Translations under genes and position numbers: made by a program
The notes under the pieces: model-generated
What the model saw: the letters and a program-made list of their open reading frames with translations, nothing else
Databases searched by the model: none
Told to the model about the DNA's origin: nothing
Assembly: GCF_023721795.1 (NCBI RefSeq)
Contig: NZ_JAMQYE010000002.1
Span: forward strand, 1-64,000
Reading direction: 5' to 3'
Length of the DNA: 64,000 bases
Origin: Zeimonas sediminis
GTDB lineage: Bacteria; Pseudomonadota; Gammaproteobacteria; Burkholderiales; Burkholderiaceae_E
Shown here: positions 1,084 through 16,290 of the stretch, in pieces
Layout: each line of letters opens with the position of its first letter
Numbering within the stretch: the stretch's first letter is position 1

Positions 1084-3448
1084 TGCCACCCCTCCTTCCC
1101 CGGATCCGGCGCAACGCGAAATCCCTGGCGATCTCCGCATACTGGCCGAGGCGCGCCCGGACCTTCCGGTCGATGTCCGCCTCGCCGGTCAGCAGCGCGA
1201 TCGCCTCGTCGAAGTGCGACACCGCGTGGATGGCGAAGCGGCCGTCCCGCACCGCGTCGACCACGTCGTGCCTGAGCATCAGGTGGCGAAGGTTCGCCTT
1301 CGGAATCATCACGCCGTGGCTCGCGTCGAGGCCGCGCGCCGCGCAGATGTCGAAGAAGCCCTCGATCTTCTCGTTGACGCCGCCGATCGCCTGGACTTCG
1401 CCCCGCTGGTTGACCGAGCCGGTCACCGCCCAGGCCTGCCGGATCGGCACGCCGGCCAGCGATGAAACCAGCGCGCAGAGTTCCGCCAGGGAGGCGCTGT
1501 CGCCCTCGACCGGTCCGTAGGTCTGCTCGAAGGCGAGGCTCGCGCTCAACGCGAACGGCTGCAGCGCCGCGTAGCGGGCGGCGACGAAGGCGCTGAGGAT
1601 CATCACGCCCTTCGAATGGATCGCGCCGGCGAGCTGCGACTCGCGCTGGATGTCGATCACGTGCCCGTCTCCGATCCGGGTGGTGGCGGTGATCCGGGTC
1701 GGCTGGCCGAAGACGAGCTCGCCGACCGAGTACACCGCCAGCCCGTTGATCTGCCCCGGCTCGGCGCCCTGCGTGTCGATCATGATCGTGTCGCGCAGGA
1801 TCTCCTCCTGCATGCGTCGCCGGACGCTGTCGCTGCGCTCGATCCGCGCGTCGAGCGCGCGCTGCACCTGCTCCGCCCCGACCACCGAGAGCCCCGCCTT
1901 GCGGGCCCAGTATTCGGATTCGGTGAGCAGGTCCTCGAGGGCGCGCCGGTGCAGGCTCAGCTTGCCGGAGTCGCCCACCTCGCGCGCGCCGAACTCGATG
2001 ACCCGCGCCACCGCCTGCCGGTCCAGCGGGATCTCGCAGGTCTTGCGGGCGATCGTGCCGATGACCCTTGCATAGACCGCGACCGACTCGGGCGAGCTGT
2101 CGGCGTCGTCCTCGAAGTCGGCGGCCACCTTGAACAGCTCGACGAATTCGGGGTCGTAGGCCTGCAGCAGCATGTGCAGCATCCGGTCGCCGAACAGGAC
2201 GACCTTCACGTCGAGCGGGATCGGCTGCGGCTCGAGCGACACCGTGCTCACCGCCCCGAAGAACTGGCCGGGCGACTCGATGCGGACCTCGCGCGTGTGC
2301 AGCGCGCGCTTGAGCGCCTCCCAGGCGAAGGGCTGCATCAGCACCCGGCGCATGTCGAGCAGCAGATAGCCGCCGTTGGCCCGGTGCAGCGCGCCGGCCT
2401 TGATCAGCCCGAAATCGGTCAGCAGCGCGCCGAAGCGCGCGATGTGCTCGATCCGCCCGACCAGGTTCGTGTAGGTCGGGTTCTCCTCGGTGACCACGGG
2501 CGCCCCGGCCTCGTCGCCACCGCCCACCAGCAGGTTGACCTCGTAGCGGCGCAGCGGCGGCAACTCCTCGGCCTGGGCGGCGAGCTGCTGCGGCATCGAC
2601 TCCCCCTGCGAGCGGAAGATGTCGGCGTTCTCGACCACGTCTTCCTTGAAGGCCTCGAGCCAGGCGACGACCTCGGGCAGGGCGACGTAGCGGCGCAGCA
2701 GGTCGTCGACCATGTTGCCGACCGCGAAGGTGGTCACCTCGCGGTTGAGCTTGCGCATCTCGTCGCGGTGCGCCCGCCGCCACAGGACCACCTGCCTCAG
2801 GAGCCGCTCGAGCTTCTCCTGCAGGCCGCGGACCGCCTGGGCGATCCGGTCCTTCTCCTCCTGGGGGAGCTTCTCGAACTCCTCGTGCGGCATCACCTCG
2901 CCGTCCTTGTCGGGGGCGAAGGAGAAGCCGGTCGGCGTTCGCAGCAGGAGGATGCCGTGGCCCTGCGCCTCGTCGACCAGCTCGCTGAACGCCTTCTCCT
3001 GCTTGCCGCCGAACTGCGCGTCGATCTGCTCGACCCGGGAACGGTAGTCGTCGCTCTCGAGCACCGCCGGAATCGCGCTGCGCAATTCCTCGATGAGCTG
3101 CTGGATGTCGGTACGGAAGCCCGGCCCGCGCCCGAACGGAAACCGCAGCGCGTGCGGCCTGTGCGGCTCCTTGAAGTTGTTGACGTAGCACCAGTCGTCG
3201 GGCCGGGCCTGCGCGGCGGCGATCGCGACGATCCGCTCGCGCGTGGCATCGGACTTGCCGGTGGCCGGGTCGCCGAGCACGAAGAGATTGAAGCCGCTGC
3301 GCCGGATGCCCACGCCGAGCTCGATCGCCTCGATTGCGCGCTGTTGGCCGAAGGCGTCGGCGATCGGCTCGAGCTGGTCGGTGGTCTCGAAATCGAACTG
3401 GCTCGGGTCGCAGTAATGGCAGAGCGCCTCTGCAGACACTCGGGTCAT
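1070..3448 (-). CDS. Lon-like ATP-dependent protease (AAA_32 / S16 family)
   Basis: A 792-residue Lon-related protease. An N-terminal AAA part carries Walker A GDPATGKS (residues 59-66). A long helical insert follows, and then a C-terminal S16 protease domain with the nucleophile motif [10 protein letters not shown] and the general-base lysine in [11 protein letters not shown], so the Ser-Lys dyad is intact. It lacks the LonA N-terminal substrate domain and resembles the stand-alone LonB-like group annotated as an AAA family ATPase. Its ATG overlaps the ftsH stop in ATGA, pointing to translational coupling. It probably degrades damaged proteins alongside FtsH (inferred). Confidence 0.88.
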
Positions 3449-5358
3449 CGCGCGTTCTCCGTGTTGCCTGTGCCTTTCGCGGGCCCCTGGGCCGCGGGCC
3501 GCGGCAGGGCCGGGCCGGCGTCCTGCTCGGGCACCTCGGCGCACAGGGCCTGCAGGTCGTCCTGGTCGAGGGTCTCGCGCTCGAGCAGCAACGCGGCCCC
3601 GCGCTCGAGCCGCGCCCGCTGCCGGGCCAGGATCGCGAGGCTTTCGGCGAAGGCCGAGGCGACCAGCTCGCGGACCGCCTCGTCGATCCGGCGCGCGCTC
3701 TCCTCGGAATGGCGCCGGGCCTCGGGAACCTGCTCCGCGATGCCGAGGAAGGCCGAGCGCGGCGACTCGTAGACCAGGTTGCCCAGCCCCTCGTCCATGC
3801 CGTACTGCATCACCATGCTGCGCGCGATGTCGGTCACCTTGGCCAGGTCGTCGGACGCGCCGGTCGATATCTCTCCCAGCACCAGCTGCTCGGCGGCCCG
3901 CCCGCCCAGCAGCACCGCCATCTTGCGCTCGAGCTCCTCGCGGGTCATCAGGAAGCGGTCCTCGATCGGGCGCTGGATCGTGTAGCCAAGCGAGCCTATC
4001 CCCCTGGGGATGATCGAGATCTTGTGGACGACGTCGGTGCCCGGCAAGGCCATCGCCACCAGCGCATGGCCCATCTCGTGGTGGGCGACGATGCGCCGCT
4101 CGAGCGGATTGAGCAGCCGGTTGCGCTTCTCCAGCCCGGCCACGATCCGCTCGATCGCGCCGGTGAAGTCGTCCAGCGTGACCGCCTCGCGGCCGTTGCG
4201 CGTGGCGAGCAGCGCGGCCTCGTTGACCAGGTTCGCGATGTCGGCGCCGGTGAAGCCCGGCGTGAGCGCGGCCACCTGCTCGGGATCGACGTCGGGCGCG
4301 AGCCTGACCTTGCGCAGGTGCACGCCGAGGATCTGCACCCGCCCCTTGCGGTCGGGCCGATCGACCAGGACCTGCCGGTCGAAGCGCCCGGCGCGCAGCA
4401 GCGCCGGGTCGAGGATCTCGGGCCGGTTCGTGGCCGCGAGCAGCACGACGCCCGACTTCGGGTCGAAACCGTCGAGCTCGGCAAGCAGCTGGTTCAGCGT
4501 CTGCTCCTTCTCGTCGTGGCCGCCGCCGAAGCCGAAGGCGCCGCGGGCGCGGCCCAGCGCGTCGATCTCGTCGATGAAGATGATCGCCGGCGCCTTCTGC
4601 CGGGCCTGCTCGAACAGGTCGCGCACCCGCGCCGCCCCGACGCCGACGAACATCTCGACGAACTCCGAGCCGTTGATCGAGAAGAAGGGCACGCCGGCCT
4701 CGCCGGCGACGGCGCGGGCGAGCAGGGTCTTGCCGGTGCCCGGCGGGCCGACCAGCAGGATGCCCTTCGGGATGCGCGCGCCGAGCCGGCCGTATTCCTG
4801 CGGGTTCTTCAGGAAGCCGACGACCTCGCGCAGCTCCTCCTTGGCCTCGTCGACGCCGGCCACGTCGTCGAAGGTGACGCCGACGCCGGTCTCGACATAG
4901 ACCTTGGCGCGGCTCTTGCCGATCGACATCAGCCCGCCCCCGCCGCCGAATCCGCCGATTCCCTTTTCCGCGATCTTGCGCAGCGCGAACATCCAGATGC
5001 CGAAGAACACCAGCACCGGCAGGATCCAGCCGAGCAGGTCGCGCAGCAGCGTGCTCTCGATCACGCCGCGGAAGCTCGCGCCGTGCTCGGCGAGCTCGTC
5101 GGCCAGCCGGGGATCGACCCGCACGGTCACGAAGCGGGTGCGGCCGTCGGCCTGCGGGCGCTTGAGCGTGCCCTGGATGCGGTCGGCGGTGACCTGCATG
5201 TCGGCGACGTTGCCGGCCTCGAGCTGCTGCATGAACTCGCTGTAGGGCATCGGCTCGACGGCCTTGAAGCTCTGCCAGACGTCGTGCGCGAGCATCGTCA
5301 GCAGCAGCACCGCCGCGATGTGCCAGACGTTCCAGCCGGGATGCTGAGTGCGCTCCAT
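3445..5358 (-). CDS. ftsH: ATP-dependent zinc metalloprotease FtsH (paralogue)
   Basis: A 637-residue membrane AAA protease. Two transmembrane helices (about 10-27 and 108-126) flank a small periplasmic domain. The AAA module has Walker A GPPGTGKT (204-211), Walker B IIFIDEID (259-266) and pore motif MFVGVG. The M41 peptidase site reads HEMGH (427-431) in place of the usual HEAGH; both histidines and the catalytic Glu are kept. A downstream GASDDL segment fits the third zinc ligand. It is not next to rlmE (the usual ftsH site) but heads a protease/stress operon, so it is probably a second, stress-related FtsH. Substrates are unknown. Confidence 0.92.
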
Positions 5359-5556
5359 TTCCTGTCCGTGTTTGTCCGATTCTAGTCAGCTTCGTCATGC
5401 TGCGGGAGGTCGCGGTGCAGCCGCTTGACCCTCGGCAAGGTTCGGCCCGTGGCCGGGCGCCGGGCGGGCCCGGGACCCCGGTCCGCGAGGCCGGTGACGG
5501 GACTAGAATGTGCTGCGAACCCCCGCCTGTCCACCCGCGATCCCCGAAGGAGACCC
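5359..5556. promoter_or_regulatory. Divergent promoter region ftsH / nrdJ
   Basis: This 198-bp region separates two divergent genes. A TAGAAT -10 lies at 5504-5509 for nrdJ and a mirrored TAGAAT at 5384-5379 for ftsH; neither has a convincing -35. TTGACCCTCGGCAA at 5425-5438 matches 7 of 10 defined positions of an FNR/CRP box and is centred about 60 bp upstream of the predicted ftsH start. I see no B12-box or cobalamin riboswitch fold ahead of nrdJ, although the enzyme needs B12. The ribosome site AAGGAGA precedes the nrdJ ATG. Confidence 0.45.
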
Positions 5557-8448
5557 ATGAAGCTCGAAAACGTGCTGGCAGCGCTGCCCGAACAGGAAGT
5601 CACGATCGACGTCCTGCAGGAGAAATACGCGAAGGGCGACGAGCGGACCGCGCACGACATCCGCAGGCGGGTGGCGCGCGCCCTGGCCTCGATCGAGGCG
5701 CCGGCCCAGCGCGAGCACTGGGAGGCGGAGTTCCTGTGGGCGATGGAGAACGGGTTCATCCCCGCCGGACGGATCAATTCGGCAGCCGGCACGGACATCC
5801 AGGCCACGCTGATCAACTGCTTCGTCCAGCCGATCGGCGACGCGGTCTGGGGACACGACGAGAACGGCACGCCGGGCATCTACGCCGCGCTGCAGGAAGC
5901 GGCCGAAACGATGCGCCGCGGCGGCGGCGTGGGTTACGACTTCTCGTCGATCCGCCCGAAGGGCGCGCTGGTGCGCGGCACGCATTCGCGGGCATCGGGT
6001 CCGGTGTCGTACATGCGGGTGTTCGACAAGTCCTGCGAGACGCTCGAGTCGGCCGGGTCGCGCCGCGGGGCCCAGATGGGCGTGCTGCGGGTCGATCATC
6101 CGGACATCGAGGAGTTCGTCCACGCCAAGCGCGACGGCTCGCTGTCGAACTTCAACATGTCGGTGGCCGTGACCGACGCCTTCATGCAGGCGGTGCACGA
6201 CGACGCCGAGTTCGAGCTGTCCCACGAGGTGCGGCCCTTCGACGCGCCCGAGGACCTGCAGCCTCGCGCCGACGGCAAGTTCGTCTACCGGACGATCCGC
6301 GCCCGCGAGCTGTGGGACCAGGTCATGCGGTCCACCTACGATCACGCCGAGCCCGGCGTCATCTTCATCGACCGGGTCAACCGCGACAACAACCTCTCCT
6401 ACTGCGAGCGAATCGAGGCCAGCAATCCCTGCGGCGAACAGTTCCTGCCGCCCTACGGCTGCTGCGACCTCGGCAGCCTGAACCTGGTGCGCTTCGTGTC
6501 GGATCCGTTCGGCGAGGCCCCGCGCTTCGACTTCGAGCGCTTCGACCGGGTCGTGTCGATCGCGGTGCGCGCGCTCGACAACGTCCTCGACCTGACGCTG
6601 TGGCCGCTGCCCGCCCAGGACCGCGAAGCCAAGGCCAAGCGGCGGATCGGGCTGGGCTTCACCGGCCTGGGCAACGCGCTGACGATGATGAAGCTGCGCT
6701 ACGACACGCAGGCCGCGCGCGACCTGGCGGCGGACATCGCGTGCCGGATGCGCGACACCGCCTACGAGACCTCGGTGGCGCTGGCCGGCGAGCGCGGCGC
6801 CTTCCCGCTGTTCGACGCCGAGCAGTACCTGGCCGAGCCGCACGCGGCGTCGCGCCTGCCCGAGGCGCTGAAGGCGCGCATCCGCAAGGAGGGCATCCGC
6901 AACTCGCACCTGATGTCGATCGCGCCGACCGGCACGATCTCGATCGCCTTCGGCGGCAACTCCTCGGGCGGCATCGAGCCGGCCTTCTCGTGGACCTACA
7001 CCCGGCGCAAGCGGATGCCCGACGGCAGCCGCCACGAGTACGAGGTCGAGGACTTCGCGTACCGGCTGTTCCGGCACATGGGCGGCAACGTCGGCGCGCT
7101 GCCCGACTACTTCGTGTCGGCGATGCAGATCTCGGCGCTCGACCACATGCGCATGAGCGCGGCGGTGCAGCCCTGCGTCGACTCGGCGATCAGCAAGACG
7201 GTCAACGTGGCCGAGGACTACCCGTACGAGGAGTTCAAGACCCTCTACCTCGAGGCCTGGAAGGCCGGGCTGAAGGGCATCACCACCTACCGGCCCAACT
7301 CGGTGATCGGCTCGGTGCTCAGCGTCTCGGGCACGCCGTCGGCGCAGCAGCCGCAGGACCTGACCGAGGACCCGGACCGCCGGCTTCGGCTCGACAAGCT
7401 GCCGCATCCGGCCCTGTCGTCGCTGCGCTGGCCGAGCCGCCCGAAGCTGCCTGCCGGCAACATGGCGTGGTCCTACATGTTCGAGCCGCTCGACGAGCGC
7501 GCCTCGTTCTGCATCTTCATCGGCCAGACCGAGGAGACGATCGAGCGCCTCGACGGAAGCCGGGCGGTTCGCAGCCTGCCCTTCGAGACCTGGGTCAACG
7601 GCAACGAGCAGCCGCGCGGCCTGGGCGCGATCGCCAAGGCGCTGTCGATGGACATGCGCTCGAACGACCGGTCCTGGCTCAGGCTCAAGCTCGACTCGCT
7701 GGGGCGCACCCGCGACGAGCAGCCGATGCAGTTGCCCTTCCCGCCCGAGGGCGAGGTGCGCTGGTCGCCGGGCGTGGTCGCGGCCTTCGCCGAGATCGTC
7801 CGGCACCGCTGCGAGGAGCTCGGCACCTTCGACTCGCTGGACACCCAGCCCACGCCGATGCTCGACGCGCTGATGTTCCGCAAGGAGCCCAAGTCGGGCC
7901 CGCTCGGCACGTTGTCGTGGACCGCCGACATCAGCAACGCCGCCACCGGCGACGACTTCGTCCTGGGGGTCAAGGAGCTGCAGCTGCCCGACGGCACGCG
8001 CAGGCCCTACTCGATCTGGCTGTCGGGCGACTATCCGAAGGTGCTCGACGGACTGTGCAAGCTGCTGTCGCTCGACATGCACGTGGTCGACGTCAACTGG
8101 ATCGGCCTGAAGTTGCGCAAGCTGCGCAGCTTCGGCGAGCTGAACGGCTCGTTCTGGGCGCCGGTGCCCGGCGAGAACCGCCAGCAGGTCTACCCGAGCA
8201 CCGTGGCCTACATCGCCGAGCTGATCCTGCACCGGTACAAGGTGCTGGGGCTGCTCGACGACGAGGGCCGCGCGATCGGCGGCGCCGGCGCGCTGGCACT
8301 GCCCGAGAGCGACACGGGCGGGCACGCGCCGACCGAGGCGCCGGTCATCGCCGGCCAGGCCTGCCCGTCCTGCGGCGCGCACGCCTACATCCGCAAGGAC
8401 GGCTGCATGTTCTGCACCGCCTGCGGACACCAGGGCGAATGCGGCTGA
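5557..8448 (+). CDS. nrdJ: Adenosylcobalamin-dependent (class II) ribonucleotide reductase
   Basis: A 963-residue class II reductase that makes deoxynucleotides from ribonucleotides using adenosylcobalamin and independently of oxygen. Visible are the LINCFVQP segment with the first redox cysteine and the active-site finger loop NPCGEQ followed by PPYGCCDLGSLNL. The C-terminal third has TSCPD-type segments, and the last about 30 residues form a four-cysteine zinc-ribbon-like tail (CPSCGAH...CMFCTACG). The start at 5557 has GAAGGAG just upstream. Its position beside two-component and FNR-type regulators suits growth under varying oxygen (inferred). Confidence 0.95.
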   Translation: MKLENVLAALPEQEVTIDVLQEKYAKGDERTAHDIRRRVARALASIEAPAQREHWEAEFLWAMENGFIPAGRINSAAGTDIQATLINCFVQPIGDAVWGHDENGTPGIYAALQEAAETMRRGGGVGYDFSSIRPKGALVRGTHSRASGPVSYMRVFDKSCETLESAGSRRGAQMGVLRVDHPDIEEFVHAKRDGSLSNFNMSVAVTDAFMQAVHDDAEFELSHEVRPFDAPEDLQPRADGKFVYRTIRARELWDQVMRSTYDHAEPGVIFIDRVNRDNNLSYCERIEASNPCGEQFLPPYGCCDLGSLNLVRFVSDPFGEAPRFDFERFDRVVSIAVRALDNVLDLTLWPLPAQDREAKAKRRIGLGFTGLGNALTMMKLRYDTQAARDLAADIACRMRDTAYETSVALAGERGAFPLFDAEQYLAEPHAASRLPEALKARIRKEGIRNSHLMSIAPTGTISIAFGGNSSGGIEPAFSWTYTRRKRMPDGSRHEYEVEDFAYRLFRHMGGNVGALPDYFVSAMQISALDHMRMSAAVQPCVDSAISKTVNVAEDYPYEEFKTLYLEAWKAGLKGITTYRPNSVIGSVLSVSGTPSAQQPQDLTEDPDRRLRLDKLPHPALSSLRWPSRPKLPAGNMAWSYMFEPLDERASFCIFIGQTEETIERLDGSRAVRSLPFETWVNGNEQPRGLGAIAKALSMDMRSNDRSWLRLKLDSLGRTRDEQPMQLPFPPEGEVRWSPGVVAAFAEIVRHRCEELGTFDSLDTQPTPMLDALMFRKEPKSGPLGTLSWTADISNAATGDDFVLGVKELQLPDGTRRPYSIWLSGDYPKVLDGLCKLLSLDMHVVDVNWIGLKLRKLRSFGELNGSFWAPVPGENRQQVYPSTVAYIAELILHRYKVLGLLDDEGRAIGGAGALALPESDTGGHAPTEAPVIAGQACPSCGAHAYIRKDGCMFCTACGHQGECG

Positions 8449-8587: not shown

Positions 8588-10426
8588 ATGGTCGAGGCAG
8601 GCGACGCCGCGGTCGGCGCGGAGCGCGAACGACTCCAGGCCGGCCAGGCGGGCTTCGCGGCGGCAGCCGCGCTGCTGGTCTCCCTGTGGATGGCCGCGAT
8701 CGCCGCGCCTGCAGCCCACGGCCCGCTCGTCGCGGGCTGGCTGCTCGCGTCCGTGCTGGCGCTCGCCGCCACGTCCGCCGCGCTGCCCTCGCTGCGGCGG
8801 CTTCACGAAGCGCAACTCGCAGCGGCCGACCGCTTCGGCCGGCTGTCCGCCGCGCTGTCGGGCCTGGTGTCCGGCGCTGCCGGCACGCTGTTCCTTCCCT
8901 CGCTCCCCGGCCCGGGCCGCGCCGCGCTGAGCATCGCCGCCTGCGCCGGCCTGGCGGTGGCGATGACCTCGATCGGCCGCCAGGGGCCGGCGTTCAGGCT
9001 GCAGCTCGCCTGTTGCGCCGGCCAGTTCGCGCTGGCCTGGTGGCGGCTCGACACGCCGGGCACGGCCGGCGTCGCCGCCGCCTTCGCCGGCTTCGCGCTG
9101 CTGGCCGGATCGGCGTCGACCTCGGTCGACCGGCTGGGCCGCCGGGTGCTGGCGGCAGCGATCGAGAACCGCCGGCTGGCCGAGTCCCTGGCCAGGGCGC
9201 GCGACCGGGCCGTCGCCGCCGACCGCGCCAAGGCTCACTTCATCGCGGCGGCCAGCCACGACCTCCGCCAGCCGGCGGCCGCGCTGTCGCTCACCGCCAG
9301 CCTGCTGCGCCGGCAGGTCACCGACCCCGCCGTGGCCCCCGCGATGCAGGGCCTGGAGCGTTCGATCGCCGCGATGAACGAGCTTCTCGGCCAGTTGCTC
9401 GATCTCTCCCGGCTCGAGACCGGGCACGTCAAGGTCGAGACACGGCCGGTCGACATCGATGCGCTGGTCCAGGACCTGCTGCAGGAAGCCGCTCCGTCGG
9501 CGCGGGCGCGCGGGCTGCGCCTGCGCGCGATTCGCTGCGGCTGCGAGCTCGACTGCGACCCGGTGCTGGTGTCGCGGATGCTGCGCAACCTCGTCGACAA
9601 CGCGCTTCGCCATACCGCGCGCGGCGGCATCACGATCCGCGCACGCCCGGTACGCGCGCGCGCGGCGTCCGCCTGCGAGCCGTCCGCCTGCGAGCCGTCG
9701 GCCTTCGAGCTGTCGGCCTTCGAGCTGTCGGTGTCGGACACCGGCGCCGGCATTCCGGCCGAGCACCAAGGGCGGATCTTCGACGAGCACTACCAGGTCG
9801 CCGGCGAGCCGCAGCAGCGTGGCGGGCTGGGGCTCGGGCTGGCGATCGTGCGTCGCATCGCGGCCCTTCACGACGTGTCGATACGGCTGCGCTCGGCGCC
9901 GGGTCGCGGCAGCCGCTTCACGCTGCGCTTCGCGGGGGCGAGGTGGCGCCCGCTTCCGGCCCCCGGCGCGCCGGCCGCGCGCGAACCCTCCGTCCCCGGG
10001 AACCGGGGCGACCGGCCGATCGCCCCCGCATGCGGGCCGCAGCGCGGCGACCCCGCGCCCCTTGCCGGCCGCCGCCTGCTCCTCGTCGAGGACGACGTCG
10101 CCCTCGGCGATGCCTTCGCGCGGTGGCTCGAGGCGACCGGCTTCGAAGTCCTCAGGGCCGCGGATGCCGCAGGCGCCGCAGCGCTGATCGACGCTCCCGG
10201 TCGGATTGACGCGGCGATCTCGGACTTCCGGCTGCCCGGCGAGGTCGACGGCATCGCCGTGCTCGAACGGGTCTTGCGGCATCACCCCGCGGCGATCCGC
10301 GTACTGGTGAGCGGCGAGATCGATCCGGCCCTTTCCGACCGTGCGGCCGCGGCGGGGCTCACGCTCCTGTCAAAGCCCATGGAGCCGCGGCAGCTGGATC
10401 GCATACTCGGGCGAGGTGTCGGCTAG
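8588..10426 (+). CDS. Membrane hybrid sensor histidine kinase with C-terminal receiver
   Basis: A 612-residue hybrid kinase. The first about 175 residues hold several hydrophobic segments, likely a membrane sensor module with no recognised input domain. The HisKA box is SHDLRQP (His at about 223). The HATPase domain has N-box NLVDNALRH, G1 DTGAGIP and G2 GLGLGLAIV. A proline-rich linker leads to a receiver whose phospho-acceptor Asp is in ISDFRLPGE (about 547). Four tandem 15-bp repeats (9668-9727) insert about 20 residues between N-box and G1. There is no Hpt domain, so output probably passes through the receiver or to the regulator immediately downstream. The signal is unknown. Confidence 0.88.
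   Translation: MVEAGDAAVGAERERLQAGQAGFAAAAALLVSLWMAAIAAPAAHGPLVAGWLLASVLALAATSAALPSLRRLHEAQLAAADRFGRLSAALSGLVSGAAGTLFLPSLPGPGRAALSIAACAGLAVAMTSIGRQGPAFRLQLACCAGQFALAWWRLDTPGTAGVAAAFAGFALLAGSASTSVDRLGRRVLAAAIENRRLAESLARARDRAVAADRAKAHFIAAASHDLRQPAAALSLTASLLRRQVTDPAVAPAMQGLERSIAAMNELLGQLLDLSRLETGHVKVETRPVDIDALVQDLLQEAAPSARARGLRLRAIRCGCELDCDPVLVSRMLRNLVDNALRHTARGGITIRARPVRARAASACEPSACEPSAFELSAFELSVSDTGAGIPAEHQGRIFDEHYQVAGEPQQRGGLGLGLAIVRRIAALHDVSIRLRSAPGRGSRFTLRFAGARWRPLPAPGAPAAREPSVPGNRGDRPIAPACGPQRGDPAPLAGRRLLLVEDDVALGDAFARWLEATGFEVLRAADAAGAAALIDAPGRIDAAISDFRLPGEVDGIAVLERVLRHHPAAIRVLVSGEIDPALSDRAAAAGLTLLSKPMEPRQLDRILGRGVG
9668..9727 (+). repeat. Four 15-bp tandem repeats inside the kinase ATPase domain
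   Basis: Two copies of TCCGCCTGCGAGCCG are followed by two copies of TCGGCCTTCGAGCTG, encoding SACEP SACEP SAFEL SAFEL. The two halves differ by three substitutions, consistent with successive duplications. All copies are in frame within the Bergerat-fold ATPase, just before the G1 box. Confidence 0.9.
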
Positions 10427-10469: not shown

Positions 10470-11195
10470 ATGGCAGAACGCTTGCTCGTCGTCGACGACG
10501 AAGAGGACATCCGCGAACTCCTGGCCGACTACCTGAGCGGCTACGGCTTCGAGGTACGTACCGTCGGCAACGGCAGGCAGATGCGGGCGGCGCTGGAGGA
10601 GTCGCCGTGCGACCTCGTGCTGCTGGACCTGGGCCTTCCCGGGGAAGACGGCCTGACGCTGGCGCGCGAGCTGCGCGCGAATTCGAGTCTCGGCATCATC
10701 ATCGTGACCGGCAGGGGCCAGCCGGTCGACCGTATCATCGGCCTGGAAGTCGGCGCAGACGACTACATCGCCAAGCCCTTCGAGCTGCGCGAGCTCGTGG
10801 CGCGGGTGCGCAGCGTGCTTCGCCGCATCCACGCCGCCGCGCCTGCGGCGGCGCCCGCAGCCGAACCCGCCGACGACGCCCGCCTGCGATTCGACGGCTG
10901 GACCCTGGACCCGGCGGCCCGGTCGCTGCACCGGCCCGACCGCCAGCCGGTGTCGCTGACCACCGGCGAGTTCGACCTGCTGACTGCCTTCGCCCGCAAC
11001 CCGAACCGGGCTTTGTCCCGCGACGAGCTGATGGACATGATCCATCATCGCGAGGCCGGTCCCTACGATCGTTCGATCGACGTGCAGGTGGGCCGCCTGC
11101 GGCGCAAGATCGAGCGCGATCCGGCCCGGCCGGAGATGATCAAGTCGGTCCGGGGCGTCGGGTACATCTTCGCCCCTCGCGTCTGCCAGGAGTGA
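10470..11195 (+). CDS. OmpR/PhoB-family response regulator
   Basis: A 241-residue DNA-binding regulator. The receiver (1-120) has the acidic pair in VVDDEED, the phospho-acceptor in LVLLDLGLPGEDG and the conserved Lys in IAKPFELREL. An Ala/Pro-rich linker leads to a winged-helix Trans_reg_C domain ending VRGVGYIFAP. It lies between two hybrid kinases and ends 10 bases before the second one, so either could be its phosphodonor. Target promoters are unknown; the helically phased AACGG repeats at 14275-14299 are one candidate (inferred). Confidence 0.92.
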   Translation: MAERLLVVDDEEDIRELLADYLSGYGFEVRTVGNGRQMRAALEESPCDLVLLDLGLPGEDGLTLARELRANSSLGIIIVTGRGQPVDRIIGLEVGADDYIAKPFELRELVARVRSVLRRIHAAAPAAAPAAEPADDARLRFDGWTLDPAARSLHRPDRQPVSLTTGEFDLLTAFARNPNRALSRDELMDMIHHREAGPYDRSIDVQVGRLRRKIERDPARPEMIKSVRGVGYIFAPRVCQE

Positions 11196-11205
11196 GCTCC
11201 GCCCC

Positions 11206-13320
11206 ATGAAACCCGGCTCGATCGCCCTTCCCGGCCTGTTCGAGAGAATCTTCCGCACGGCGGCCGACGCGCTGGTGGTCATCGACGGCGACGGGCGGAT
11301 CCGGCTCGCGAACCTGCAGGCCGAGCGCCTGTTCGGCCACGACGCCGAGTCGCTGCTCGCGCTGTCCATCGAGGACCTGATCCCGCAACGCTTCCGCGAA
11401 AACCATCGACGCTATCGGCAGCATTACGGCCGCCGGCCGGAATCCCGGCCGATGGGCATGAACCTGGCGCTGCTCGGCCTGCATCGCGACGGCCACGAGT
11501 TCCCGGTCGAGGTCAGCCTCAGCCCCTTCCCGCTCGACGACGAGACGCTGATCTGCGCGAACATCCGCGACGTGGCCGAGCTTCAGCGCGCGCGCGAGCT
11601 GGCCGTTCACGCGCGGCAGGCCACCGCGATCGCCGAGTTCGGCCGGCTAGCCTTGGCGAGCAAGGACACCGGCGCCCTGGAGCGCGAGGCATGCCGGCTG
11701 GCGGTGCTCCACCTCGACGCCACGCGGGCGCTGATCGTGATGCGCGATGCCGCCCGCCGGGAGCCGCGGGTGGTCGAGTCGATCGGCTTCGAGCCGGAGC
11801 GCCTCGACGCCGCCCTCGCGATGATCGCCGAACGCTGGCAGCGCGACGGCGACCTGCCGATGGACGAACCGATCCTGCTCGACCAGCCCGAAGCCGGCGC
11901 CGGCCGGCGCGCCGGCGCGGCACGGCCGGACCGGCCGGTGGCCCCGCAGCCGCCGGGGACCGCGATCTCGCATCCGGGCGCGCGGTCCACAACCGGCCTG
12001 ATGCTCTGCGCGATCCCCGGCGAGGACGGCGCGGTCGGCCTGATCGGCGCCTGCGCCGCCGGCCGCCGCAACTTCGCGCGCGACGACGCGAGCTTCCTGC
12101 AGGCGCTCGGGAACACGCTGGGCGCCGTGCTCCAGCGCGAGAGCACCGAGGCCAGGCTGTTCCAGTCGCAGCGGCTGGAGGCGCTGGGCCAGCTCACCGG
12201 CGGCGTGGCGCACGACTTCAACAACCTGCTGACCGTCGTCTCGGGCAACCTGCAGATGCTCGAGGAGCGGCTCGACGACCCCTTCTCCCAGAAGTTGGCG
12301 AAGGCCGCGCTGCGCGCGACCGCGCGCGGCGCCGACCTGACCCGCAAGCTGCTGGCCTTCTCGCGCAGGCAGACGCTGCAGCCCCGCGCGATCGACGTCG
12401 CGCAGTTGCTCGACTCGCTGGCCGACGTGCTCAGGCGCACGCTGGGCGCGAACATCGACGTGCGGACCGCCTGCGACGAGGGCCTGCCGCCCGCCAAGGC
12501 CGACCCCGGCATGCTCGACACCGCGCTGCTCAACCTCGCGGTCAACGCGCGCGACGCCATGCCCGACGGCGGACGACTGACGCTGCAGGCGCAGCTCGAG
12601 CACCTGGACGCCGACTACGCCGGCCGTCACGCCGAGGTCGCGCCGGGCGAATACGTCGAGATTTCCGTCAGCGACAACGGCACCGGCATGCCGCCCGAGG
12701 TGCTGGCCCGCGCCTTCGAGCCCTTCTTCACGACCAAGGATCACGGGAAGGGCAGCGGCCTGGGCCTCAGCCTGGTCTACGGCTTCGTCAAGCAGTCGGG
12801 CGGGCACATCGCCGTCTACAGCGAGCCGGGCATGGGCACCACGATCCGCCTCTACCTGCCGATCGCCGACGAGGGCGCGACCCGGGCCAGCCGGCCCGCC
12901 CCCGCCGAGATCCGCGGCGGCGACGAGACGATCCTCGTTGTCGAGGACGACGATGCGGTGCGTGAGGTGGCCACAGGCTTCCTGAAGCGGCTCGGTTACC
13001 GGGTGCTCGAGGCGGCCGACGCGCGCCGGGCGCTGGCCCTGATCGAGGGCGAGTCGACGGTCGACCTGCTGTTCACCGACGTCGTGCTGCGCGGCGAGGT
13101 CAACGGCCCTGAGCTGGCCCGCCAGGCCGTGCGGCTCAGGCCCGGCCTGAAGGTGCTGTACACCTCGGGCTACCCGCGCAACGCCCTTCCGATGCAGGGG
13201 GAGCTCGACGGCAGCATCGAGCTGCTGAGCAAACCCTATCCGATCGCGCAGCTGGCCCGGATGCTGCGGCGCACGCTGGACGAATCTCCGCTGCCAACGC
13301 AAGAAGGCCCGGCTCGCTGA
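11206..13320 (+). CDS. PAS-GAF hybrid histidine kinase with receiver
   Basis: A 704-residue soluble hybrid kinase with no transmembrane segment. An N-terminal PAS domain (about 8-125) is followed by a GAF-like region (about 145-310). The HisKA box reads GGVAHDFNNLLT, typical of the HDFNN kinase subclass. The HATPase domain has NARDAMPDGG, DNGTGMPPE and GSGLGLSLV. A C-terminal receiver has its Asp in LLFTDVVLRGE. The PAS resembles the heme/redox sensor type seen in FixL-like kinases, but bound cofactor cannot be told from sequence alone. It is translationally close to the regulator upstream (10-bp gap, CAGGAG ribosome site). Confidence 0.9.
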   Translation: MKPGSIALPGLFERIFRTAADALVVIDGDGRIRLANLQAERLFGHDAESLLALSIEDLIPQRFRENHRRYRQHYGRRPESRPMGMNLALLGLHRDGHEFPVEVSLSPFPLDDETLICANIRDVAELQRARELAVHARQATAIAEFGRLALASKDTGALEREACRLAVLHLDATRALIVMRDAARREPRVVESIGFEPERLDAALAMIAERWQRDGDLPMDEPILLDQPEAGAGRRAGAARPDRPVAPQPPGTAISHPGARSTTGLMLCAIPGEDGAVGLIGACAAGRRNFARDDASFLQALGNTLGAVLQRESTEARLFQSQRLEALGQLTGGVAHDFNNLLTVVSGNLQMLEERLDDPFSQKLAKAALRATARGADLTRKLLAFSRRQTLQPRAIDVAQLLDSLADVLRRTLGANIDVRTACDEGLPPAKADPGMLDTALLNLAVNARDAMPDGGRLTLQAQLEHLDADYAGRHAEVAPGEYVEISVSDNGTGMPPEVLARAFEPFFTTKDHGKGSGLGLSLVYGFVKQSGGHIAVYSEPGMGTTIRLYLPIADEGATRASRPAPAEIRGGDETILVVEDDDAVREVATGFLKRLGYRVLEAADARRALALIEGESTVDLLFTDVVLRGEVNGPELARQAVRLRPGLKVLYTSGYPRNALPMQGELDGSIELLSKPYPIAQLARMLRRTLDESPLPTQEGPAR

Positions 13321-13407: not shown

Positions 13408-14181
13408 TCAGGCGCCGACTTCGCGGCGGCTGTCGACCCGGCCGATCACCGCCTTCAGCGCGCACATCTCGACGATCGTGATCTCGCGATTGCGCACCGC
13501 GATCAGTCCCTCGGACTGGAAGCGCGACAGGATCCGGCTGACCGTTTCGAGCTTCAGGCCGAGCAGGCTGCCGATTTCCTCGCGCGTCATGCGCAGCAGG
13601 AACTGGGTGGCCGACCAGCCGCGCGCGGCGAGCCGCTTCGAAAGGTTCAGCAGGAAGGCGGCGAGGCGTTCCTCGGCGCGCATGGAACCGAGCAGCAGCA
13701 TCAGCGAACGCTCGCGCTGGATCTCGCCGGCGAGCAGCTTGAAGAGCTCGCGCTGAAGCGCCGGCTCGCGGCTGGCCAGCGCGTCGAGTTCCTCGAACGG
13801 GATCTCGACGACCTCGCTGTCCTCGAGCGCGATCGCGTCGCCGCCGCAGGCCTCGGAACCGACGCTGTCCAGCCCCAGCACCTCGCCGGCCATGTGAAAG
13901 CCGGTCACCTGCTCGCGCCCGTCCTCGGTCAGCAGGACGGTCTTGAAGGAACCGGCCCGGATGCCGTGCAGCGCGTGAAACGGCGCGCCGGCATGGAACA
14001 GGTACTCGCCGCGCCGGACCCGGCGCCGGGTGCCGCCGACCCGCATCAGCAGCGGCTCGAGCGCCGACATGCCACCGACCCCGGCGTCCGTGACCGAGCG
14101 GCCGGCGCGCGAGGCCGCGGCGGCGTGGCGCGCGGCGATTGCGGGGCTCTGGCTTGCGGTGGTGGCGGTCGTCTGGCTCAT
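13408..14181 (-). CDS. FNR-family transcription regulator lacking Fe-S cysteines
   Basis: A 257-residue Crp/Fnr regulator strongly FNR-like in its core: VTGFHMAGEVLGLDSVGS in the sensory fold, EIPFEELD, the dimer helix and the recognition helix LETVSRILSRFQ with the FNR-type E-x-x-S-R triad (E212, S215, R216). E. coli FNR binds [4Fe-4S] with three N-terminal cysteines plus one before EIPFE. Here the N-terminus has no cysteine and the fourth position is Val (VVEIPFE). Only C112 and C240 exist, at non-ligand positions. The start is secure: AGGGAGG precedes the ATG. It likely binds TTGAT-type half-sites but cannot sense oxygen the FNR way. Confidence 0.88.
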   Translation of the reverse strand: MSQTTATTASQSPAIAARHAAAASRAGRSVTDAGVGGMSALEPLLMRVGGTRRRVRRGEYLFHAGAPFHALHGIRAGSFKTVLLTEDGREQVTGFHMAGEVLGLDSVGSEACGGDAIALEDSEVVEIPFEELDALASREPALQRELFKLLAGEIQRERSLMLLLGSMRAEERLAAFLLNLSKRLAARGWSATQFLLRMTREEIGSLLGLKLETVSRILSRFQSEGLIAVRNREITIVEMCALKAVIGRVDSRREVGA

Positions 14182-14274
14182 CGTGGGCCTCCCTCTGGCT
14201 TTTCTGTCGTAATTCAATGAATCGTCAGGAAGGAAATCTACCGATGCGCGCTGCCGGTTCGATTGCACGGCCGA

Positions 14275-14299
14275 AACGGTCGGTAACGGTTTGTAACGG
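14275..14299. promoter_or_regulatory. Three AACGG direct repeats with 10-bp phasing
   Basis: AACGG occurs at 14275-14279, 14285-14289 and 14295-14299, exactly 10 bp apart, within the 198-bp region between the divergent FNR-like gene and the mgtC-type gene. The wider unit is (A/T)AACGG(T). Direct repeats on one helix face are typical of OmpR/PhoB-type or activator binding. The binding protein is unknown. Confidence 0.4.
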
Positions 14300-14379: not shown

Positions 14380-15678
14380 ATGGAATTTTCCGAACTGATC
14401 CAGCTGCGTTTCGGCGAGCATCCCGAACCCGGGTTGCTGCGCACCTTCGCGATCGCGCTCGCGATCGGGCTGCTGATCGGCCTCGAAAGAGAGCGCCACG
14501 CCGAGCCGATCGCGGGGCTGCGGACCTTCGCGCTGACAGGATTGCTCGGCGCGGTTTCGGCGATGCTGTCGGAGATGTACGGCTTCCCGTGGCTGCTGGC
14601 CACGGGGCTGTTCGCGGTCGGCGCGATGACCGTCGTCGCCCACGTGCACGACCGGGCCGCGCAGGCCGATCCGGGCACGACCACGACGGTGGCGATCATG
14701 CTGTGCTTCGCGCTCGGGGCGATGGTCTGGCGCGGCTACGCCGAGGCGGCCGCGCCGCTCGCGATCGTCACGACCGCGCTGCTCTACTTCAAGCCCGAGC
14801 TGAAGGGAATCACCGAGGGGCTCGGCCGGCGCGACCTGGTCTCGATCCTGCAGTTCGGCGCGCTCAGCCTGATCATCCTCCCGGTGGTGCCCGACCAGGG
14901 CTACGGCCCGCACGGCGCGCTGAACCCGCACCGCATCTGGCTGATGGTGGTGCTGATCTCCGGCGTGAGCCTGGCCGGCTACCTGGCCCTGCGCGTCGTC
15001 GGTCCCCGGCACGGCGCGCCGCTGGTCGGCCTGCTCGGCGGCCTGGTTTCCTCCACCGCGACCACGCTGATGTACGCGCGCGAGGCGCGCGACACCGGCG
15101 ACGATCCGCGCGTGCCGGCGCTGGTCGTGCTGCTGGCCTGCTCGGTCGTGTTCGGCCGGCTCGCGGTGCTGTGCGTTGCCACCGCCCCTGCCCTGCTGCC
15201 GGCGCTCTGGCCGCTGCTGGTGGCCGGGGCGTTTCCGCTTCTGGTCGCCGCAGCGCTGGCGTGGCGCGGCATGCGGACACAGGACCTGCCGCCGGTGCCG
15301 GACGTTCGCAACCCGACCGAGCTGCGGACGTCCCTGTCCTTCGGCGCGCTGTACGCGCTGGTGCTTCTCCTGGCCGCGATCCTGTCGGCCGAGCTCGGCG
15401 CCGGCGGACTGTACGCGCTGGCCGCGGTCTCGGGCCTGACCGACGTCGACGCGATCGCGCTGTCCGGCATGCAGCTGCTCGGGCTCGACCAGATCGGGAC
15501 CGCCGAGGCGGTCACCGTGATCGGACTGGCGGCGCTCTCGAACACCGTGCTGAAGGCCGCGACCGCGGTCGCGATCGGCGGTCGCGCGCTCGGCCGCCGG
15601 ATCCTCGGCGGCTTCGCGGGCAGCGCGGCGGCGCTCGTCGCGGCGATCGCGTGGACGCAAGCGACGCTGGCGCCCTGA
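14380..15678 (+). CDS. MgtC/SapB N-terminal and DUF4010 membrane protein
   Basis: A 432-residue integral membrane protein. The MgtC/SapB-type N-terminal domain (about 15-140) carries GLLIGLERER and the TGLLGAVSAML helix. A DUF4010 domain of several more helices (about 165-425) follows, with the signature GLVSSTATTLMYA and GLTDVDAIALS. MgtC proteins act in magnesium-limited and acid stress survival, but this fused family is uncharacterised. ATG 14380 is preferred to an upstream ATG because the helices begin just after it. No Shine-Dalgarno is visible; GATACT (14366-14371) lies 8 bases upstream, so the mRNA may be leaderless. Confidence 0.85.
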   Translation: MEFSELIQLRFGEHPEPGLLRTFAIALAIGLLIGLERERHAEPIAGLRTFALTGLLGAVSAMLSEMYGFPWLLATGLFAVGAMTVVAHVHDRAAQADPGTTTTVAIMLCFALGAMVWRGYAEAAAPLAIVTTALLYFKPELKGITEGLGRRDLVSILQFGALSLIILPVVPDQGYGPHGALNPHRIWLMVVLISGVSLAGYLALRVVGPRHGAPLVGLLGGLVSSTATTLMYAREARDTGDDPRVPALVVLLACSVVFGRLAVLCVATAPALLPALWPLLVAGAFPLLVAAALAWRGMRTQDLPPVPDVRNPTELRTSLSFGALYALVLLLAAILSAELGAGGLYALAAVSGLTDVDAIALSGMQLLGLDQIGTAEAVTVIGLAALSNTVLKAATAVAIGGRALGRRILGGFAGSAAALVAAIAWTQATLAP

Positions 15679-15846: not shown

Positions 15847-16290
15847 ATGTACAAACACATCCTGGTTCCGACCGACGGATCGGATCTGTCCAACGAGGCC
15901 GTGGCCAAGGCCATCCAGTTCGCGAAGGAAACCGGCGCGAAGCTGACCATCCTTCACGTGATGCCCGAGTACATCCCGCCGGCCTTCGCCGAGTTCCCGG
16001 CCGCCGGGCAGGCCTCGTTCGCCGAATTCATGAAGGCCACCGAGGAGACCGCCAAGACGGTGCTCGGCGCCGCGCAGAAGTCGTCCGAGGACGCCGGCGT
16101 GGCCTGCGAAACGGTTTCGATCCGCCACACGCAGCCGTACCGGGCGATCATCGACCTGGCGCGCGACAAGGCCTGCGACCTGATCTTCATGTCCTCGCAC
16201 GGACGCCGCGGGCTGAGCGCGCTGGTGCTCGGCAGCGAGACCAACAAGGTGCTGACGCACTCGAGCATCCCGGTGCTGGTCTTCCGGTGA
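15847..16290 (+). CDS. uspA: Universal stress protein UspA
   Basis: A 147-residue single-domain Usp. The N-terminal strand KHILVPTDGS has the adenine-binding Asp, and the C-terminal nucleotide loop HGRRGLSALVLGSET fits G-2x-G-9x-G-S. The family responds to growth arrest, low oxygen and other stress. The ribosome site GGAGA lies at proper distance. It has its own promoter with an FNR-like box and its own terminator (16327-16357), so it is probably monocistronic and a candidate target of the nearby FNR-family regulator. Confidence 0.93.
   Translation: MYKHILVPTDGSDLSNEAVAKAIQFAKETGAKLTILHVMPEYIPPAFAEFPAAGQASFAEFMKATEETAKTVLGAAQKSSEDAGVACETVSIRHTQPYRAIIDLARDKACDLIFMSSHGRRGLSALVLGSETNKVLTHSSIPVLVFR

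Follow-up and report, generated by a model that had tools for sequence, protein, structure and literature searches.

A conserved cysteine-less FNR-type regulator in Zeimonas sediminis, linked to FxkR-type two-component genes and preceded by a K-box

Results

Organization of the locus and properties of the regulator

The window, by which we mean the whole 64,000-nucleotide stretch of Zeimonas sediminis DNA that was analysed, holds the gene for a cysteine-less regulator of the FNR type, together with two-component genes and genes for a membrane protein and a universal stress protein (Table 1). FNR is the textbook direct oxygen sensor. A sequence-only reading of this DNA had proposed that the regulator lost all four ligands of the [4Fe-4S] cluster while retaining the FNR core and the residues that read DNA, and that a wrong start could not account for the missing cysteines.

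Table 1. Features at the regulator locus (window coordinates)
Feature	Position	Strand	Basis
Second hybrid kinase, upstream of the response regulator	8588..10426	+	domain matches
OmpR-family response regulator, putatively FxkR-type	10470..11195	+	domain matches, tree
Hybrid histidine kinase, hFixL-like	11206..13320	+	domain and sequence matches
Cysteine-less FNR-type (FixK-like) regulator, 257 aa	13408..14181	-	profile, structure and alignment matches
Shine-Dalgarno AGGGAGG of the regulator gene	14188..14194	-	six nt before ATG, sequence
-10-like hexamer TAGATT	14235..14240	-	motif scan
Third, weaker 10-bp-phased repeat GTTTC	14273..14277	-	sequence
K-box GTTACAAACCGTTACC, 11/12 to GTTACA-N4-GTTACA	14282..14297	-	motif scan
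MgtC/DUF4010 membrane protein, between regulator and usp	14380..15678	+	domain match
Universal stress protein (usp)	15847..16290	+	domain match

The regulator consists of a cNMP-like domain, a dimer helix (residues ~140-166) and a helix-turn-helix whose recognition segment, GLKLETVSRILSRF, retains E-x-x-S-R. Residues 51-247 match FNR structures with an E-value of ~5e-47 (the group of 5cvr, which we take to be from Aliivibrio fischeri), and in the structure model the ten-residue blocks of residues 51-250 have a mean pLDDT of 73-96, while residues 1-36 and 251-257 fall below 50. The core and the DNA-reading residues are thus those of FNR, as had been proposed. The NCBIfam Fnr model gives 205.9 bits, below its cut-off of 228, and the FixK model 114 bits against a cut-off of 300. 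The only cysteines in the protein are C112 and C240, and V125 is aligned to C122 of E. coli FNR, the fourth ligand position. The three N-terminal cysteines and the central cysteine that mark a [4Fe-4S] FNR are therefore absent, and its E-x-x-S-R recognition helix is present.

The frame of the regulator gene stays open far upstream of the ATG. Over the 60 codons that precede the core it encodes no Cys, and over 80 no CxxC; in the orthologue L016 only 11 codons ahead of the core are open. These observations, together with the Shine-Dalgarno sequence, exclude a cysteine-rich N-terminus hidden by a wrong start or a frameshift. A sequencing error can be dismissed as well, since all 16 copies from the same genus, and the copies from a related genus, were read without the ligands. 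We also considered whether the cluster could be held by other residues, and rejected this: the clade shares no new Cys, and the position of C112 is occupied by Tyr, His or Cys.

Conservation of ligand loss and ancestry of the regulator

Exactly one match to the regulator at E<=1e-20 was present in 16 of 18 genomes of the genus (its own included), and all 16 proteins are cluster-less, with Val, Ile, Met, Thr or Ala at the fourth ligand position; the remaining two genomes had no match. Matches were found in four of five genomes of a related genus, which belongs to the same family, and every copy read lacks the ligands (for a second copy in G083, L146, the open piece was read). Elsewhere in the family, at loci ~50-60% identical, all 27 of the 27 copies read keep CxxC...C and the fourth Cys. 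The cysteine-less state is a conserved feature of the lineage.

In a tree of 126 rows the 20 cysteine-less rows of the clade fell together (support 100/99) among betaproteobacterial FNRs, though without one definite sister group. The regulator is about 50-62% identical to the nearest betaproteobacterial FNRs outside the clade, and 28-32% identical to FixK9a, FixK9b and the pSymA regulator. A single clade with the rhizobial (alphaproteobacterial) FixKs was rejected (p-AU 0.0007, with long branches in play). A single origin within the betaproteobacterial FxkR-linked regulators, the clade joining the copy from G041, a genome of another family, was not rejected (p-AU 0.293; support 55/94).

Other Crp/Fnr proteins in the genome

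A search for a second FNR bearing cysteines, which the sequence-only reading had proposed, gave a divided answer. No second close FNR is encoded in the genome of the window, the next best match being 26% identical, and the identity of the six further matches at E<=0.01 spans 23-37%. One distant Crp/Fnr protein (C1:1380878-1381456; L003, L235), 25% identical, does have a CxxC before its core (FCLMC) and a central Cys aligned with C122. In this protein Val and Ala replace the Glu and Ser of E-x-x-S-R, and it scores 43 bits with the Fnr model, the cut-off being 228. It occurs in two of the 18 genomes of the genus, that of the window and Zeimonas arvi (L236, the G007 copy), with the same cysteines in both, and is absent from the other 16 at E<=1e-20. 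The protein, possibly a further Fe-S or metal sensor, could act alongside the regulator; judged by matches at E<=1e-20, it cannot make up for the missing cluster in the 14 remaining genomes with a cysteine-less FNR. G041 encodes, besides its cysteine-less copy, a separate FNR with cysteines (L145).

The neighbouring two-component genes

The response regulator and the PAS hybrid kinase are convergent (tail-to-tail) with the regulator gene in eight of eight relatives of the clade for which flanks were available, and usp is nearby in all eight. The MgtC/DUF4010 gene is found in three of them (L037, L039, L040). A clear orthologue of the second hybrid kinase occurs in just one, that of Zeimonas arvi (L037), so this kinase is not a constant part of the module. 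At the eight loci checked, out of 72 with a cysteine-bearing fnr, the response regulator and kinase were never adjacent, and at two of these eight a usp gene lay some 5 kb away.

We searched 61 genomes for the kinase, scoring at most the best 18 candidates in each, and 20 of them have it at E<=1e-120. It directly adjoins a cysteine-less FNR in 19 (16 in the genus, two in the related genus, and G041). The twentieth, G023, has a cysteine-less regulator of its own with weaker homologues of the response regulator and kinase adjacent. Within the genus, general synteny also retains usp and other neighbours. In 16 kb around the copy in G041, just the regulator, the kinase and the response regulator were found among the genes of the window, and neither usp nor the other neighbours; the link between the three genes is therefore more than local synteny.

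The response regulator is 49-58% identical to FxkR9 (49%) and to regulators of S. meliloti and Variovorax, and forms one clade with them (95/93), with its own paralogue L215 outside. A second response regulator of the genome is nearly as similar to FxkR9 (217.9 vs 230.6 bits), yet lies outside the FxkR clade. The place of the neighbouring response regulator in the sequence clade of Rhizobium FxkR and the K-box upstream of a fixK-type gene mark it as probably FxkR-type, with K-box binding predicted.

The order of domains in the adjoining kinase is a FixL-like PAS, a middle region that appears GAF-like though it gave no Pfam hit, HisKA, HATPase and receiver. The protein thus shares PAS, kinase and receiver with hFixL, along with sequence kinship (residues 311-692 are 48% identical to hFixL9). 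Its PAS matches FixL (E 7e-14), the best match being the PAS of another kinase, 10jx (E 3e-17). His67 lies at the heme-ligand position of FixL, and His was found there in 10 of 10 kinases. The position of FixL Arg220 is Leu, Ile, Thr or Met in the betaproteobacterial kinases, whereas Rhizobium hFixL keeps Arg. With the His kept and Arg220 absent, the kinase is at best a candidate heme-based oxygen sensor. A heme ligand of the DosP type (Met95) was rejected, as the column in which we presume Met95 to lie is not conserved.

A K-box with rigid spacing upstream of the regulator gene

The repeated GTTAC motif before the regulator gene was found prior to our reading of the K-box literature. FxkR is described as an OmpR-family regulator that binds GTTACA-N4-GTTACA (the K-box) at Rhizobium fixK promoters (PMC7888657, PMC4999443, PMC7769827), and we read the same K-box before fixK9a and fixK9b of pRL9 and a Crp/Fnr gene of pSymA, the genes being named by position. 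GTTACA-N4-GTTACA was present within one mismatch in all 21 upstream regions of cysteine-less genes, three times exactly; these represent 20 distinct sequences, as L044 and L121 are identical. In all 21, TANNNT, a -10-like pattern chosen after inspection of the promoters, begins exactly at +58 from the start of the K-box (57 nt after it), and the region upstream of the G041 copy has the same arrangement. Transcription of the regulator gene is predicted to start at ~14228. The K-box of R. leguminosarum is given at -62 from the transcription start (PMC7888657), and in the regulator promoter the predicted start would place the 3' end of the box ~54 nt upstream, a similar position that is not identical.

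The exact repeat GTTACN5GTTAC occurs once in the 3.86-Mb genome of the window and once in G007, both times at the regulator gene. Among the six genomes scanned, G013 has three copies and G002 and G011 two each, one of them at the regulator gene in every case, and G020 has zero exact copies. On either strand it was absent from all 107 upstream regions of cysteine-bearing fnr genes, some of which are duplicates. An FNR box within one mismatch showed the opposite trend: 80 of the 108 other upstream regions (these 107 and that of the cysteine-less G041 copy; 106 had at least 300 nt) contain one, against seven of the 21 cysteine-less regions and two of 16 in the genus. With seven of 21 only, the FNR box was mostly rejected as a conserved promoter element of the clade. 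In the promoters of the related genus (L023, L024, L044, L120, L121), a one-mismatch FNR box lies at +26 from the start of the K-box, before the -10 element, which suggests autorepression in that genus.

FNR boxes and candidate targets

The palindrome TTGATN4ATCAA occurs three times in the genome of the window and zero times in the control. The first box is near a gene whose product scores 658 bits as benzoyl-CoA reductase subunit C (cut-off 421). The second separates the gene for a branched-chain-type ABC substrate-binding protein from GNAT/Rrf2 genes, and the third lies between the COX2/COX1 operon of an oxidase and the gene for a cytochrome b-ferredoxin reductase. Two exact boxes, identical in their letters to the second and third, occur in G007, which we take to be Zeimonas arvi on the strength of an identical match to L037. 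The relaxed TTGAYN4RTCAA occurs 15 times vs once in the control, with genes for the F1 ATPase beta subunit, hemerythrin and PPK2 among the neighbours; several of the 15 lie by genes with no evident anaerobic link (pgsA, TauD-like, dehydrogenase-like). No FNR box was found upstream of ccoN within one mismatch. Genome-wide scans with one mismatch gave 47-86 sites per genome vs 3-12 in controls and were left unused.

Two further observations concern these regions. Four FNR-like palindromes (L117, L118, L223, L224) are spread over ~31 kb around the gene for benzoyl-CoA reductase subunit C (G000:C1:148066-179433). At L179 (715-8538) an unusual set of genes encodes COX2/COX1, an SCO1-like protein and a cytochrome b with 4Fe-4S and FlpD domains, and a cytochrome b-ferredoxin-FAD reductase fusion is divergent from it, with the exact FNR box in between.

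Discussion

Taking together the observed loss of the ligands and its conservation, the linkage of the three genes, the promoter motif with its rigid spacing, the kinship of the response regulator with FxkR and the genomic FNR boxes, we consider it probable that this FNR-derived protein occupies the FixK role in a cascade of the hFixL-FxkR-K-box-FixK type. The PAS hybrid kinase would sense a signal, most likely low oxygen or the redox state, and phosphorylate the FxkR-like regulator, which would bind the tandem GTTAC repeats and activate the regulator gene at an activator-dependent promoter. The cluster-less regulator would then dimerise without a cofactor and bind FNR boxes (TTGAT-N4-ATCAA) at anaerobic or microaerobic genes, its activity being set by the amount of protein made and not by an oxygen-labile cluster. 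The sequence-only reading had left three options, namely constitutive activity, another signal, or control by the neighbouring two-component genes. The last is favoured because the adjacency is conserved, a K-box is present in every clade promoter read, and an FxkR-like regulator lies next door. Constitutive activity of the regulator protein itself is compatible with such control. Several findings weigh against the cascade: the missing Arg220 of the kinase, the distant Cys-bearing Crp/Fnr protein, the second response regulator close to FxkR9, the Variovorax module without a K-box, G020 without an exact repeat and three genomes with further copies, the acidic residue at 154, the ccoN gene without an FNR box and the relaxed boxes by genes unconnected with anaerobic life, along with the general synteny of the genus.

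It is unlikely that the regulator is simply an FNR with constitutive activity, always dimeric, made in steady amounts and unrelated to the two-component genes beside it. We compared the 20 rows of the clade with 103 cysteine-bearing FNRs (E. coli numbering), and many of the clade-fixed differences fall in the dimer helix: Phe144 and Gln152 in 19 of 20 rows each, Arg155 in 20 of 20, Glu154 in 20 of 20 vs 14 of 103, and Leu157 in 20 of 20 vs 12 of 103. A dimer helix with such fixed residues, in a protein whose cluster is gone, is what a permanent dimer might carry, and the D154A variant of E. coli FNR is described as able to dimerise free of the cluster and as partly active (PMC4214427). The clade, however, retains an acidic residue at 154, and a Glu there is reported also for the cluster-bearing Fnr1 and Fnr3 of Herbaspirillum (PMC5934665). 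The rhizobial FixKs carry Ala at 154 and so resemble D154A, whereas the clade keeps the acid; the route to a stable dimer, if any, therefore differs from that of the rhizobial FixKs. Steady expression also sits poorly with a regulator site conserved at fixed spacing in 21 of 21 promoters, and a lack of relation to the neighbours with the persistent linkage of kinase and response regulator in G041.

That the regulator itself senses another ligand, through its cNMP-like pocket or a heme as CRP, DNR and CooA do, appears improbable. The protein does have an intact cNMP-binding domain, and at several effector-domain positions the clade is fixed for residues other than those of cysteine-bearing FNRs, but many of the clade-specific changes lie in the dimer helix instead, the best matches are to FNR and not to CRP or DNR, and neither a shared new Cys nor a conserved N-terminal motif is found, residues 1-36 being of low confidence in the model. 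It is very unlikely that the K-box and the response regulator control usp or the MgtC-like gene in place of the regulator: usp is divergent from the regulator in five of the eight flanked relatives, which have no MgtC-like gene in between, yet where that gene does intervene the box is on the side of the regulator, in its orientation and with the same -10 spacing, and the G041 copy has the K-box with no usp found around it.

The lineage relies on an FNR unable to bind the cluster and lacks a close one that does, in a genome that contains a benzoyl-CoA reductase gene, so most of the sensing of oxygen or redox state must take place elsewhere. The proposed cascade is a variant of a known one, found in a different class and with an effector of different ancestry. 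More tentatively, it is possible that in this betaproteobacterial lineage an FxkR-type two-component system first took control of the genome's one close FNR, which lost its cluster afterwards, so that the FixK role arose separately from rhizobial FixK and FixKf. The effector seat would have been refilled repeatedly by the FNR at hand, with the response regulator and K-box constant across classes, and the betaproteobacterial kinase might sense something other than, or besides, heme-bound oxygen. FixK and FixKf are proposed to have lost the cluster independently in alphaproteobacteria (PMC4999443), and the clade described here is a further case of such loss. A promoter box and response regulator of rhizobial symbiosis, placed on a separately derived FNR, indicate that sensing and DNA reading can be rewired, and the K-box promoter of the regulator offers a concrete, testable promoter.

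Like the hFixL-FxkR-FixK(f) cascades of Rhizobium leguminosarum, R. etli and Sinorhizobium meliloti, the locus combines an OmpR-type response regulator of the FxkR clade, a PAS hybrid kinase, a K-box before the regulator gene, and a cluster-less Crp/Fnr regulator with an FNR-type recognition helix (E-x-x-S-R). Unlike them, the regulator derives from a betaproteobacterial FNR, and common descent with the rhizobial FixKs was not found; the kinase has an apparent extra GAF-like region and lacks the FixL Arg220; the response regulator and kinase genes are convergent with the regulator; and a third repeat is present. R. leguminosarum 3841 has FnrN in addition, whereas the genus lacks a close cluster-bearing FNR. 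With the FNR of E. coli and other betaproteobacteria the regulator shares its fold, core motifs, recognition residues and FNR boxes in the genome, but it has none of the four ligands, its promoter carries a K-box, and the FNR box is rare in promoters of the genus. FixLJ-FixK of Burkholderia, compared by description alone, likewise places a FixK-type regulator under a kinase in a betaproteobacterium and differs in its use of FixJ (PMC9104464). Among the matches listed in a search of open-licence literature (titles and abstract openings), none reported FxkR or the K-box in Betaproteobacteria.

The cysteine-less Crp/Fnr regulators of Variovorax and G023 also adjoin a response regulator and a PAS kinase, convergently in Variovorax, but are 35-41% identical to the regulator and have Trp at the fourth ligand position. 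No K-box was found at these modules within the limits scanned, in Variovorax within two mismatches. At 13 more distant cysteine-less loci (L174, L175, L190-L199, L203; some with short flanks) this response regulator and kinase were adjacent only at L174. Ten of the loci, L190-L199 (G019, G034, G077, G089, G091, G093-G097), form a separate group within the family; their FNR-like products are ~40% identical and have Tyr or Phe as the fourth ligand residue, and the response regulator and kinase in question are absent from the flanks read. The cysteine-less FNR-like gene at L203 (G058, 3242-8021) encodes Ile at that position and adjoins PAS domains and two universal stress protein genes.
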